A DNA stretch of 28,102 nt, from the IMG/VR virus record IMGVR_UViG_3300046507_000205, positions 1 to 28,102 of that record. The stretch is one strand, 5' to 3'. The stretch is from a virus. The notes under the pieces are model-generated. The model saw nothing but the letters and a program-made list of their open reading frames with translations, had not been told where the DNA came from and did no database searches. This document shows positions 6,725-20,995 of the stretch, piece by piece. Every line of letters starts with the position of its first letter. Position 1 is the first letter of the stretch. Both the position numbers and the translations under genes were made by a program.

Positions 6725-7783
6725 ATGAGACTCACCATCTCAAAGAGCGACCTAAGCCGCGTCCTGACCAATGTCGGACGCGTCGTCGAAAGCCGAAACG
6801 TCATACCGATCCTCGGCAATGTAAAGCTGTCGGCTGACGCTGGGCACCTAACAGTCACAGGCACAGATCTTGATATCATTGCAACAGACCGCGCGGTTGC
6901 CGACGTCACCCAACCCGGCACCGTCTGCGTCGATGCGAAGCTGCTGGCAGATATTGCCAAGAAGGCGGGCGGCGACATCTCCATCAGCCTGGACGCTGAT
7001 CGCCTCGTCGTAAAATCAGGCCGCAGCGTGTTTAAGCTGGCGACGCTCGATGCGAAGGATTTCCCGAGTTTCGGCGATGAAGCATATGCGGCTTCATTCG
7101 ACGTTGACCTCGCCGCCCTGTTTGCGCCGGTAGCATTCGCGATCGGCAACGATGCCAACCGACCATTCCTTCATGGCGTGTTCTTCCACGTCCTGGATGG
7201 CGAGGCGGTAGCGGTAGCCACCAATGGTCACCGCCTGGCACGTCACAAAGGCGCGGAGCTTCCCGAGTTCGAAGGCGTGATTGTGCCGCAGAAGACGGTC
7301 GGCATGTTGCCCAAGGGAACAGCCAGCGTGTCGGTCAGCGGAAACCTGATCCGCATCGTTTCCGGCGACTTCTCGCTTACCAGCAAGCTGATTGATGGCA
7401 TTTTCCCAGACTATCGGCGCGTCATACCGACCGAGAACGATCTCGTTGCAAGCGCCGAGAAGGATGATCTTCTGAAGGCGTCCGATCGTGTTGCAACGGT
7501 CAGCAGCGAGCGCGGCAACGCCGTCAAGCTGTCCATCGCGCCTGGCGCCATTGCGCTCACCGTCCAGTCGGTCGAACGCGGCGAGGCGGCCGACGAAGTG
7601 CAGGCGGAATACAGCGGCAAGCCTGTCGATATCGGCTTCAACTCGATCTACTTCCGCGATGCGCTGCAAGTCTTCCCTTCAGGTCTCGTCAATCTGGCGC
7701 TGCGTGACGCCGGCTCGCCCGCGCTCATCACCTCGCCGATCTACCCGGCGCTCGATGTCACACTCATGCCGATGAGGGTTTAG
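6725..7783 (+). CDS. dnaN: DNA polymerase III beta subunit-like sliding clamp
   Basis: A 352-residue homologue of the bacterial beta sliding clamp, slightly shorter than the usual 365-375. The three-domain clamp pattern is visible. The N-terminus MRLTISKSDLSRVLTNVGRVVESRNVIPILGNV is the classic clamp opening, the second domain contains GVFFHVLDGEAVAVATNGHRLA, and the third ends in LMPMRV like host clamps. It would ring DNA and tether the polymerase; since no polymerase gene lies here, it may recruit the host replicase or repair enzymes. The ATG at 6725 (after AGAGGAGAGACC) was chosen over the upstream frame start, which has no clamp residues. It heads its unit with an ACCAC leader and hairpin H2. 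Confidence 0.9.
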   Translation: MRLTISKSDLSRVLTNVGRVVESRNVIPILGNVKLSADAGHLTVTGTDLDIIATDRAVADVTQPGTVCVDAKLLADIAKKAGGDISISLDADRLVVKSGRSVFKLATLDAKDFPSFGDEAYAASFDVDLAALFAPVAFAIGNDANRPFLHGVFFHVLDGEAVAVATNGHRLARHKGAELPEFEGVIVPQKTVGMLPKGTASVSVSGNLIRIVSGDFSLTSKLIDGIFPDYRRVIPTENDLVASAEKDDLLKASDRVATVSSERGNAVKLSIAPGAIALTVQSVERGEAADEVQAEYSGKPVDIGFNSIYFRDALQVFPSGLVNLALRDAGSPALITSPIYPALDVTLMPMRV

Positions 7784-17298: not shown

Positions 17299-17880
17299 AT
17301 GCAGCCGCTTGAACTAGCCAAAACGAGGAAGCGTGAGCGGATACCGCAAGGTGTCCGCTTTGACGTGTTTCGACGCGACAATTTTACCTGTATCTATTGT
17401 GGTCGCGGCTCGCCAGATGTGACGCTTCATTGCGACCACAAGCTGGCGCATTCGAAAGGCGGCAGCGATGACAAGGAAAACCTCGTTACGGCATGCGAGG
17501 ATTGCAATTTCGGAAAGGGGGCGAAAAGCGTGAGCAAGCCAGCGATTGCGCGATCGAGAGGCACTAATGACAGCGGCCTGGTCGGACTGTTCGGCCACAC
17601 GAGGAATGATGATGGATCGATCAATTGGCAATTCGAGATCATTGGAAAGATCAATGATGACACTTACACCATTCAGCTTTTTTCTTGGCTAGATGGTGGC
17701 CGAACGGACGTAAAGATGCTGTCCGTAGCTAATCTGATGGATTGCTCATTATACGCCACAAGGGAGGATTGGATCTGGGCTTGGGCAAAGGAAAGTGCGC
17801 GAGAGGATGGTCGTGACCTCAAATGGGCTGAAGGTACATTTTATTTAGCGACAGGTCGCCGATACGGAGAGGCAGCATGA
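17299..17880 (+). CDS. HNH endonuclease
   Basis: A 193-residue protein with an HNH nuclease core. CIYC (31-34) and CEDC (66-69) bind a structural zinc, CDHKLAHSKGG contains the catalytic Asp46-His47, and Asn61 lies in DDKENLV. Residues 85-193 form an extra domain with several tryptophans (WQFEIIGKINDDTYTIQLFSWLDGG). It could be a free-standing homing-type nuclease or serve in recombination. GAGGAGG precedes the ATG. Its end overlaps the primase start by ATGA, so it travels with the replication gene. Confidence 0.85.
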   Translation: MQPLELAKTRKRERIPQGVRFDVFRRDNFTCIYCGRGSPDVTLHCDHKLAHSKGGSDDKENLVTACEDCNFGKGAKSVSKPAIARSRGTNDSGLVGLFGHTRNDDGSINWQFEIIGKINDDTYTIQLFSWLDGGRTDVKMLSVANLMDCSLYATREDWIWAWAKESAREDGRDLKWAEGTFYLATGRRYGEAA

Positions 17881-20225
17881 CCAAATCCCCCAAAGACCTA
17901 GCGCTTTCATACATCGCGCACGGCGTTCCGGTATTCCCCTGCAGGGCGGCCGACGAGCACACTGACACCTTCGATCAGGATACCGGTGAGGAAATCGTGC
18001 TGAAGGCAAAGACGCCTTTGGTGTCGAATGGCTTCAAGGGCGCATCGAAAAACGTGCGGGTTACCGGCGTGCTATGGGACCGCAACCCAACGGCCATGGT
18101 CGGCATTCCAACCGGCGAGCAGTTGGGCGCGTGGGTGCTAGATGTTGATGTCCACAAGGATGAAAATGGAAACGTTATCAATGGCTACGAAACGCTTGCT
18201 GCACTAGAAGAGAAGCATGGCGCGTTGCCGCCAACCGCGACCGCAAGAACGGCAGGCGGCGGAGAGCATCGGTACTTCAAGCATGTTCCCGGCGTGCGCA
18301 ACCGCGGCAAGCTCGGGCTCGGACTCGATATCCGCGGCAGCGGCGGATACGTCATTGCACCTGGTAGCGTCACGGCCGAAGGAAAGGAATACCTATGGCT
18401 TGATTATGATGGCGATGGCATTCCACCGCTGGCAGATGCTCCGGAGTGGCTGCTGGATCTCGTGCTGCCGCCACCGGTGGCGCGTTCCGATTCCAACTAC
18501 CAGTATACGGCAGGCAGCAACGATGCTTACGTCGAGCGAGCCATCCAGCTCGAGCTAGAGGAAACGGCGTCAGTACCAATGGGTGGCGGGCGCAATATCC
18601 GCCTCAACCAGGCGTCGTTCTCGCTAGGCACATTTGTGGGTGCCGGCGCGTTGTTGGAATCCGAGGCCCGCGCGATTTTGCAAGACGTGGCTCGCGGGTG
18701 GGGCAGAGACTGGGTGCAATGCTGCAAGACGATCGAGAATGGGCTTAAGGCCGGCATCATGAGCCCGAGGGAAATTCCGGAACCTTCTGTATTTGAGCAG
18801 ACGGCCACGGTGGACCACTCCAGGATGGTCGCGAAGGCAGCAGAAAAGCGCGCAGCCAAAGAGGCTGCCGTGCAGCCAGATGAAGTGCAGCCAGCGGAAG
18901 AGCCGTCCGCAGAGGCCACCACCGACGAAGAAGACCTGCCGGAATACAAACTGGAAGCGGTAGCAGACCTAGAAAGCCTGACTTATCCAGGCGGGCTCGT
19001 CGAGGATCTGATCGACTGGATTGTATCAAGCGCCGAGCAGCCGTCACGCGCACTTGCCATGGCGGCCGTCTTGCCGCTGGTGTCAGCGCTCTGCGGCCCG
19101 CGGTACTCTACCGGCTCTAGGGACACCCGACCGAACATATACACTGTGGCGTTAGCCGAGTCTGGTTTCGGCAAGGAGCACGCAAGAAGCCAGATAAAGC
19201 GGCTGCTGATGTCGGATCAAGGCGTGTTCGCCAACTTCAGCGGGCCGGCTCGTATCATGTCTGCCTCAGCACTGCGCGAGGTGCTTGAGGCCAACCAGTC
19301 AGTTAATTGCCAGATAGACGAGTTCGGCGGCTTTGTGAGGGATATCACCGACCGCAAGGCCGGAAGCCACCAGCGGGCAATCTCGACCGATTTGCGCGAC
19401 TACTATTCAGCATCGTCAACGTTCTTCGAAGGGGCGGCATATCGAGGCAGTCCGCCAAAGCGGATATACAACCCGAACCTCTGCATCCACGGCACGTCGA
19501 CGCCCGAGCAGTTCTGGACTGCCCTATCGTCTGCGAGCGCAGAAGACGGCTTGCTGCCTCGCCTTATCCTCTTCCACATAACCGGCAAGAAACCGCCCAC
19601 AGTCGTGCCGCAGCGCGATGTGCGCTTCGTGCCGCATACATTGCTCATGCGCATGTCTGACGTCGCGGGCATCGATGTGGCAAAGCAGAGAGGCAACCTG
19701 CATGGTGTGTTGCCAAAGGCGTCTAGCGAGGTGAAGCCGACGGTCGTGCCGTGGACTGAAGATGCGCTTGGCATTCTTCGCTCGGTCAAGGAGACGATCG
19801 ACGCGAAAGAAACTGCGGTCGCGGCAGAGTCGCAACCGTTCGTCCGGCGCATCATAGAGAACGCCATCAAACTGGCGATCATAGTGGCCGTAGGCACGGA
19901 TCCGCGACAGCCTGTGATAACCGAGGCCATATTCGAGTGGGCGGCCGCTGTGGCGTGGACTTGCGCCGCTGCAATGCTGGCAGAGGTGGGTGAGCGCCTG
20001 GCCGACAACCAGCGTGAGGCGAACTACAAGAAGATCGCAGCCCTAATCCGCAAAGCCGGCGGTAAGGGCATCACCGAGGGCAAGATTGCCGATCGATGCA
20101 AGGCCATCGACGGCTGGCAGCGAGACGAGATTTTGAAGGATCTGCAGAAGACTGGGCAGGTCGAAATCGCGGCGAATGACAACAAGACAGGGCGTCCGTC
20201 GAGGCGCCTGATATGGGTGGCTTAA
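17877..20225 (+). CDS. Bifunctional primase-polymerase fused to DUF3987 helicase-like domain
   Basis: A 782-residue replication protein. The N-terminal Prim-Pol domain (about 1-200) shows LDVDVH with Asp89/Asp91, then GGGEHRYF with His131, and GLDIRGSGGYVIAPGS. These are the catalytic pattern of archaeo-eukaryotic-type primases in mobile elements. A charged linker (about 320-360) leads to a DUF3987 P-loop domain with SGFGKEH (429-435; Lys433 followed by Glu instead of Ser/Thr) and Walker B QIDEFG (479-484). It would prime and unwind DNA at the phage origin. The C-terminus has AANDN. The candidate origin begins immediately after the stop codon, typical for an initiator-origin pair. Confidence 0.85.
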   Translation: MTKSPKDLALSYIAHGVPVFPCRAADEHTDTFDQDTGEEIVLKAKTPLVSNGFKGASKNVRVTGVLWDRNPTAMVGIPTGEQLGAWVLDVDVHKDENGNVINGYETLAALEEKHGALPPTATARTAGGGEHRYFKHVPGVRNRGKLGLGLDIRGSGGYVIAPGSVTAEGKEYLWLDYDGDGIPPLADAPEWLLDLVLPPPVARSDSNYQYTAGSNDAYVERAIQLELEETASVPMGGGRNIRLNQASFSLGTFVGAGALLESEARAILQDVARGWGRDWVQCCKTIENGLKAGIMSPREIPEPSVFEQTATVDHSRMVAKAAEKRAAKEAAVQPDEVQPAEEPSAEATTDEEDLPEYKLEAVADLESLTYPGGLVEDLIDWIVSSAEQPSRALAMAAVLPLVSALCGPRYSTGSRDTRPNIYTVALAESGFGKEHARSQIKRLLMSDQGVFANFSGPARIMSASALREVLEANQSVNCQIDEFGGFVRDITDRKAGSHQRAISTDLRDYYSASSTFFEGAAYRGSPPKRIYNPNLCIHGTSTPEQFWTALSSASAEDGLLPRLILFHITGKKPPTVVPQRDVRFVPHTLLMRMSDVAGIDVAKQRGNLHGVLPKASSEVKPTVVPWTEDALGILRSVKETIDAKETAVAAESQPFVRRIIENAIKLAIIVAVGTDPRQPVITEAIFEWAAAVAWTCAAAMLAEVGERLADNQREANYKKIAALIRKAGGKGITEGKIADRCKAIDGWQRDEILKDLQKTGQVEIAANDNKTGRPSRRLIWVA

Positions 20226-20440
20226 CGTCCATCCACGCTTGAGTTTCGTCCATGGATGAAACTCCAACCCAATAGTTTCGTCCGGGATGAAACTCACCAC
20301 GTCGCGGACGAAACTAATTCCAAAAAGCGTAATGAAATCAAATGTATAATATACCTATATATAGTTTCATCATTTATCTTTATCGTTATATAAGTGTTCT
20401 ATTTTCTCTCTTTTTCTTCATTTGTATAGAATAGAGGGGG
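20226..20440. other. Candidate replication origin: iteron-like repeats plus AT-rich block
   Basis: Six half-sites of AGTTTCRTCC occur in 131 bases: 20241-20251, 20254-20264 (reverse), 20274-20283, 20285-20295 (reverse), 20306-20315 (reverse) and 20363-20371 (partial). The first four form two hairpin-like inverted pairs separated by one or two bases, each with one G-T wobble. From about 20314 to 20434 G+C falls to roughly a quarter by my count, with ATATA and TTATATAA tracts. Repeats beside an AT-rich unwinding block, directly after a primase/helicase gene, are the classic layout of an origin. A regulatory region with a promoter is the alternative. Confidence 0.6.
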
Positions 20441-20506
20441 AGAAAGGACAAAAGCCTTACCAGCCACCCGATCACCAGTTCACCAACCACCACACAGGAG
20501 ACGATA

Positions 20507-20995
20507 ATGCCAGCAAAACGCACCACCCAAACAACCCGCATGAACGGCCAGCGCGTGCGCATCGTAACCACCGTCACAGCAGCTGGAACGAGCGTCAAGG
20601 TCACCGAGGCAGAACCGAAGGAATGGGAACTGCAGGCTGCCCAGATTCGCGCTCTGCGCTCCATGCCTGAGTACGGCAAGCAGTTCCTGCTGGCAGGCGA
20701 CCAGAATTCAGCAAAGCGCGGGCCGCGCGCCCAGATGGAGGCGATCGCTGCGGGTATGACGCCAGGCGAGGCCGATGTTCGAATCTACCTCGATGGCGGT
20801 CGGCTGCGCATGATTGAGAACAAGGTTGGCCGCGGACGCCTGTCACCTGCCCAGGTCGAGCGTCACGCTGCATTGGCTCGCTTGGGGTTCACTGTCGAGG
20901 TCTTGCGCGCTGTGACGACAGAAGACGCGGCGCGACAGGCTGTTGCTCTGGTGCGCGGGTGGCTTGAGGAAGAAAAAGCAAAAAAAGTTGCATAA
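20507..20995 (+). CDS. VRR-NUC family nuclease
   Basis: A 162-residue protein whose C-terminal half is a VRR-NUC (virus-type replication-repair nuclease) domain. It shows GEADVRIYL with Asp90, MIENKVGRGRLSPAQ with Glu104, Lys106 and Gln116, then GFTVEVLRA. Such enzymes cleave branched or flap DNA, for example during recombination. The N-terminal 50 residues are basic. It starts after an ACCAACCACCACACAGGAGA leader at the end of the origin region. Its TAA stop is the first three bases of a TAACGC palindrome. Confidence 0.85.
   Translation: MPAKRTTQTTRMNGQRVRIVTTVTAAGTSVKVTEAEPKEWELQAAQIRALRSMPEYGKQFLLAGDQNSAKRGPRAQMEAIAAGMTPGEADVRIYLDGGRLRMIENKVGRGRLSPAQVERHAALARLGFTVEVLRAVTTEDAARQAVALVRGWLEEEKAKKVA

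Follow-up and report, generated by a model that had tools for sequence, protein, structure and literature searches.

In phage P4, a single protein, alpha, primes, unwinds and reads the short repeats of its origin through a C-terminal winged helix, its primase being of the TOPRIM type (PMC4234260). The pRN1 protein ORF904 is a Prim-Pol replicase which also has a C-terminal winged helix and an origin behind its gene, where the essential element lies within 166 bp; pRN1 uses an SF3 helicase and a stem-loop, with no iterons, and stem-loops rather than repeats were proposed for related Prim-Pol replicases as well (PMC4234260). For primases with DUF3987, Kazlauskas and colleagues (2018) predicted an origin-reading role for the winged helix and a helicase function for DUF3987 (PMC5862659). 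A description of a Prim-Pol/DUF3987 phage origin appears to be missing from the literature that we found, and the publications consulted on 16-3-like and phiLM21 phages contain nothing on origins. Here we consider a 28,102-base stretch of DNA from a phage of soil bacteria (the window), which is one whole IMG/VR record, IMGVR_UViG_3300046507_000205, itself a fragment, in which short repeats follow a gene for a replicase of this kind. With a probability of roughly 0.84, positions 20226-20456 would be a phage replication origin whose half-sites are read by the C-terminal winged helix of the replicase.

The repeats are built on the half-site AGTTTCRTCC. The original prediction counted six copies; a motif scan recovered five of them as exact matches, at 20242 (+), 20254 (-), 20274 (+), 20285 (-) and 20306 (-), while the sixth, AGTTTCATCA at 20363-20372 (+), matches only with one mismatch. 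Both inverted pairs said to have two-base and one-base centres were found, namely AGTTTCGTCC AT GGATGAAACT at 20242-20263 and AGTTTCGTCC G GGATGAAACT at 20274-20294. The TCCATGGA centre of the first pair recurs in nearly all relatives. A lone half-site, AGTTTCGTCC, occupies 20306-20315 on the minus strand, in a position that is kept in relatives, and a last, degenerate half-site (GGACAAAAGC/GCTTTTGTCC), which in relatives often matches the local allele, is located at 20446-20455, again on the minus strand. Because this seventh half-site is conserved in position, the unit extends over approximately 20226-20456, slightly longer than first described. With up to one mismatch allowed, AGTTTCRTCC has 8 matches in the 28 kb against 2.85 expected, a number reached by 0 of 100 shuffles, and 6 of the 8 fall inside 131 bp; as in iteron origins, multiple copies of a short sequence are thus gathered in one place beyond chance. 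Rfam gave no match in the window.

Next to the repeats we found the predicted 120 or so bases of roughly one-quarter G+C: the 120-bp block at 20316-20435, which includes the mismatched half-site, has 22.5% G+C, compared with 58% for the record. The weakest 100 bp of the whole 28-kb record starts at 20335 and is the least stable in the window by a wide margin (-1.06 kcal/mol per step, the next stretch having -1.27), and in 20 of 20 relatives' loci the repeat region holds the weakest 100 bp within about 10 kb. An AT-rich stretch of low stability, as expected of an unwinding element beside iterons, which this block is proposed to be, was thus seen in each locus tested. Conserved alignment columns inside the block correspond to AATGAAATCAA (20331-20341) and TATATATA (20356-20363), and a TATA-like stretch, TGTATAGAATAGAGGGGG (20418-20437, +), a possible -10 region for the next gene, is conserved in relatives.

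As single-stranded DNA, the region in the window folds better than its shuffles (z -4.1), and pRN1 needs a stem-loop of this kind behind a similar replicase gene (PMC4234260), so one could suppose that a large DNA stem-loop is what matters and the half-site sequence does not. We regard such a structural origin as very unlikely: no more than 5 consensus pairs are supported when 21 relatives are aligned, and the conserved stem-loop of about 100 nt typical of pRN1 was not found in this alignment; moreover, the arms of the pairs often mismatch (ATTCTGTCC versus AATTTAATCC in L006, A-C in L016 and L018), while a number of half-sites are unpaired.

An iteron-type origin also has an initiator gene with a DNA-binding domain nearby, and the repeats do lie directly behind an initiator-type gene, as had been claimed. 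The replicase gene, the proposed initiator, spans 17877-20225 (+), its stop being at 20225, and encodes Prim-Pol (residues 9-191), a DUF3987 ATPase and a C-terminal winged helix, with Pfam matches to PF09250 (E 1e-32) and PF13148 (E 1e-10) and a match over nearly its whole length to PHROG 3022, DNA primase. The last approximately 80 residues are confidently predicted to form a winged helix: in the AlphaFold model (pLDDT 84) the C-terminal domain consists of three helices and a two-stranded wing, and the structures that match it best in the PDB, among them PadR, ROK and RPA32 domains, are of the winged-helix kind, although high Z values are usual for any winged helix and name the fold, not the family. 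The origin-binding domain of P4 was not among the matches listed, by sequence or by fold, which excludes nothing. The AlphaFold model and the tracking of divergence point to residues 701-782, encoded at 19977-20222 (+), as the proposed repeat reader, and every examined match in a search with this winged helix sits in a replicase, including the distant L136 and L137. The DUF3987 P-loop of the same protein (19161-19178, residues 429-434) reads SGFGK[E/D] where Walker A has GK[S/T], with the acidic residue shared by all 19 aligned relatives and by the distant L136 (GSGKE).

Conservation of the repeats was assessed in relatives obtained by protein search, which are 63-79% identical to the window across the entire replicase. 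A profile of the region finds it in 24 of the 26 related phages with downstream DNA (identical host-genome copies counted once), and inspection revealed that the other two carry their own version: L034 has CTTTCGTGT sites, and L017 (record G019) has AGTTTATCA-like sites about 430 bp past the gene. One profile match, L050, proved spurious. In all 26 the layout is kept and the region is downstream of the Prim-Pol/DUF3987 replicase gene, while the arm sequences differ and track the winged helix, so that the reading stands up to the check proposed with it, repeat conservation in relatives with the same replicase, though in arrangement and not in letters. In nearly all of them the order is inverted half-sites with a TCCATGGA centre, a lone half-site, AATGAAATCAA, and TATATATA with a half-site, continuing into an AT-rich stretch, the TATA-like stretch and the last half-site. 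In L011, L021 and L032 the region lies 570-1150 bp past the replicase gene, still upstream of the gene for a VRR-NUC-like protein that is the right-hand neighbour in the window; other sequence fills the gap, yet the repeats follow the winged helix there too. Genes are inserted between replicase and repeats in L032 (6329-7478) and L021 (6305-7050), so adjacency is not required.

The region occurs once per phage record, the few weak matches on the opposite strand stemming from its own palindromes, and in two host genomes of more than 6 Mb the palindrome pattern was found once per genome. When 2.9 million viral contigs were scanned for exact matches to TTTCRTCCNNGGAYGAAA, 25 stretches were obtained, nine of which carry the profiled region, in all nine cases beside this replicase; the other 16 are lone palindromes. 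None of these 25 exact-palindrome stretches of the viral collection pointed to a repeat region separate from the replicase, of the sort that satellites sharing the origin would carry. Two contigs from one sample may also be mentioned: 3300011763_000015 (L033) ends at the replicase stop, and 3300011763_000014 (L111) begins inside the repeats, as if assembly broke at the repeat region.

Arms differ among phages and are alike within one phage, the pattern expected for sites that are read by a fast-changing protein. The AGTTTCGTCC arms of the window recur in L003, L010, L021 and L022, whereas ACTTTCGTCC is found in L009, L013 and L016, CCTTTCGTCC in L015 and L026, AATTATCC in L004, L014, L031 and L032, AATTCTGTCC in the L006 group, and GAATTTGTCC in L020. 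We used Mantel tests on 19 phages to compare distances between half-site sets with distances between parts of the replicase. The repeats follow the C-terminal part (r = 0.59, p = 0.0002), with r = 0.73 for residues 721-780, but show no significant correlation with Prim-Pol (0.10), helicase residues 361-560 (-0.02) or residues 561-700 (0.14), nor with the VRR-NUC-like neighbour (-0.07). Given residues 1-700, the partial r between repeats and winged helix is 0.62. Synonymous sites within the winged-helix codons show no significant tracking of the repeats (r = 0.14, p = 0.08), and winged-helix amino acids still track them after correction for synonymous sites (0.66); plain linkage is therefore a poor explanation of the co-variation, its role as sole cause being weakened by the synonymous sites and by the right-hand neighbour alike.

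Natural recombinants have changed the winged helix and the repeats together. Over most of residues 1-704, L004 resembles the window or L022 (80-96%), whereas its last 78 residues match L014 at 86% and the window at 65%; its repeats, too, are those of L014. Similarly, residues 1-700 of L021 and L011 are 89% the same, yet the two phages have different winged helices and repeats: the winged helix of L021 is nearest to that of L022 and its repeats to those of L003, while L011 is of another type. L031 and L032, whose backbone is related to that of L021 and L011, carry AATTATCC.

Pairing of initiator and iterons by type has a precedent in lambdoid phages, where the O protein is matched type-specifically to the ori iterons and an AT-rich stretch adjoins them; in lambda, however, the O gene itself contains the origin and the helicase is recruited from the host, whereas here one protein would combine primase, ATPase and reader. 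In the PLE satellites of Vibrio cholerae, a RepA domain and the origin were swapped together and their cognate specificity was tested (PMC8263062). As in that case, only cognate pairs would be expected to work, with the difference that the PLE domain is RepA_N, at the N-terminus, and that cospecificity was examined there by experiment and here through sequence comparison. Our data fit the prediction that the winged helix of DUF3987 primases reads the origin (PMC5862659).

In every relative of the replicase family that was examined, the VRR-NUC-like gene directly follows the region. Its repeats could accordingly be sites for a regulator, either the replicase or a phage repressor, controlling this gene and those following it, with replication starting elsewhere. 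The TATA-like stretch and the last half-site stand at conserved spacing, and in several relatives a terminator-like hairpin separates the replicase gene from the region, which makes it probable that the next gene depends on a promoter of its own. Nevertheless, a purely regulatory role seems unlikely to us, as a repressor would not usually have just one such region in each phage, the identity of the repeats tracks the winged helix of the replicase and not the neighbour, and 120 bp of easily melted DNA exceeds the need of a promoter; a sigma-70 scan of the repeat region gave no convincing site. A promoter for the next gene may well share the region, which is compatible with an origin. Short inverted repeats beside a nuclease gene, with a terminase gene about 4 kb away, might alternatively serve another process such as packaging or recombination, an explanation to which we give hardly any credence since nothing links the repeats to terminase and they track the winged helix, not the nuclease.

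Several observations weigh against reading the region as an origin. The cumulative GC skew of the window does not turn at the site, and no repeats were found behind the replicase, in the gap tested, in H40/1, C7 and BUCT805 (gammaproteobacterial phages) or in NV1.1.1. Alignment columns 142-204, on the AT-rich side, co-vary with the repeats as well (r = 0.69); the region therefore changes as a unit, and some linkage is possible. It should also be remembered that the 19 phages are not independent and that the Mantel test corrects for kinship only in part, and that the helicase part of the full-length replicase model is of low confidence.

An iteron-type origin is nonetheless the best reading, and by analogy it would work like that of phage P4, with a primase of archaeo-eukaryotic type and DUF3987 as the ATPase. 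The winged helix of the replicase encoded upstream would recognise the AGTTTCRTCC half-sites, several bound copies would bring the DUF3987 ATPase onto the adjoining AT-rich block, the block would melt, and the Prim-Pol domain would lay the first primers; we infer that replication would start in this way within 20226-20456. Phage P4 has a second repeat site, crr. No counterpart of it was found, one repeat region being present in the window record, which is a fragment, and in longer relatives. The primase also differs, as PF09250 Prim-Pol replaces the TOPRIM domain of P4, and so does the helicase class, as the ATPase part matches DUF3987 where pRN1 has SF3; moreover, half-site repeats and an AT-rich block are found here without the large conserved stem-loop of pRN1. 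Because of these differences in primase, helicase class, single site and stem-loop, the system of the window falls outside both the P4 and the pRN1 groups.

The other side of the slot that holds the repeats is marked by the VRR-NUC-like nuclease gene (20507-20995, +; PHROG 824), which has a weak Pfam VRR_NUC match and a homologue, 80% identical, annotated as VRR-NUC in RHph_X2_25. In rhizobial phages this gene follows several quite different replicase types, and it keeps its place beside the repeats. Further upstream in the replication block, the window encodes a complete beta sliding clamp (6725-7783, +; 3 of 3 DNA_pol3_beta domains). A scan that started from the VRR-NUC-like protein gave 80 loci; in 27 the replicase gene lies within 600 bp, and 18 of these 27 have an intervening 8-mer present at least 4 times. 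One survey of distant arrays covered the plus-strand loci L056, L064, L070, L075, L081 and L083 and the oriented loci L035-L046. Taken together with other searches, it showed that in more remote rhizobial phages, with distant Prim-Pol or DUF3987 replicases, this slot is occupied by repeat arrays of unrelated sequence: GCGTGACA in phage 16-3 (12-13 copies) and RHph_X2_25 (14 copies), CGATAGGA in L070 and L208, CTTCCACC in L083, CCGGACA in L056, TAATTCCA in L039, and TTGCAA-type repeats in L040, L043 and L046. The VRR-NUC-like proteins of 16-3, RHph_X2_25 and L056 are 77-87% identical to that of the window, yet the repeats share nothing.

Among the 16-3-like phages, FQRA in the C-terminus goes with 11-18 copies of CGGGACA in ten loci, two of which share a tail (L148, L152, L154, L155, L161, L177, L189, L190, L196 and L220), whereas phages 16-3 and RHph_X2_25 have FNRA and GCGTGACA (13-14 copies; L151 and L142). 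L154 and L155 have a 16-3-like tail, yet carry FQRA and CGGGACA. A single Q/N difference may set CGGGACAA versus GCGTGACA in this branch, a lead and not a result, because only two phages stand on one side.

Tentatively, the stretch from replicase to VRR-NUC could be a general specificity cassette of rhizobial temperate phages, in which reader and repeats are exchanged or re-evolved together; this is a possibility to which we give somewhat less than even odds. It would comprise at least 10 origin types, including AGTTTCRTCC, AATTATCC, AATTCTGTCC, TTTCGTGT, GCGTGACA, CGGGACAA and CGATAGGA, and such diversity would be kept because two phages in one cell have to use different origins, or as a means of escaping elements that attack origins. 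Through the natural swaps, reader and target can be told from the rest of the locus, and ready-made pairs are available, including that of 16-3, a laboratory phage of Sinorhizobium meliloti. If the replicase reads these repeats as proposed, origin types would be readable from sequence, and one could predict whether co-resident prophages are compatible and use these parts to construct small replicons for rhizobia.
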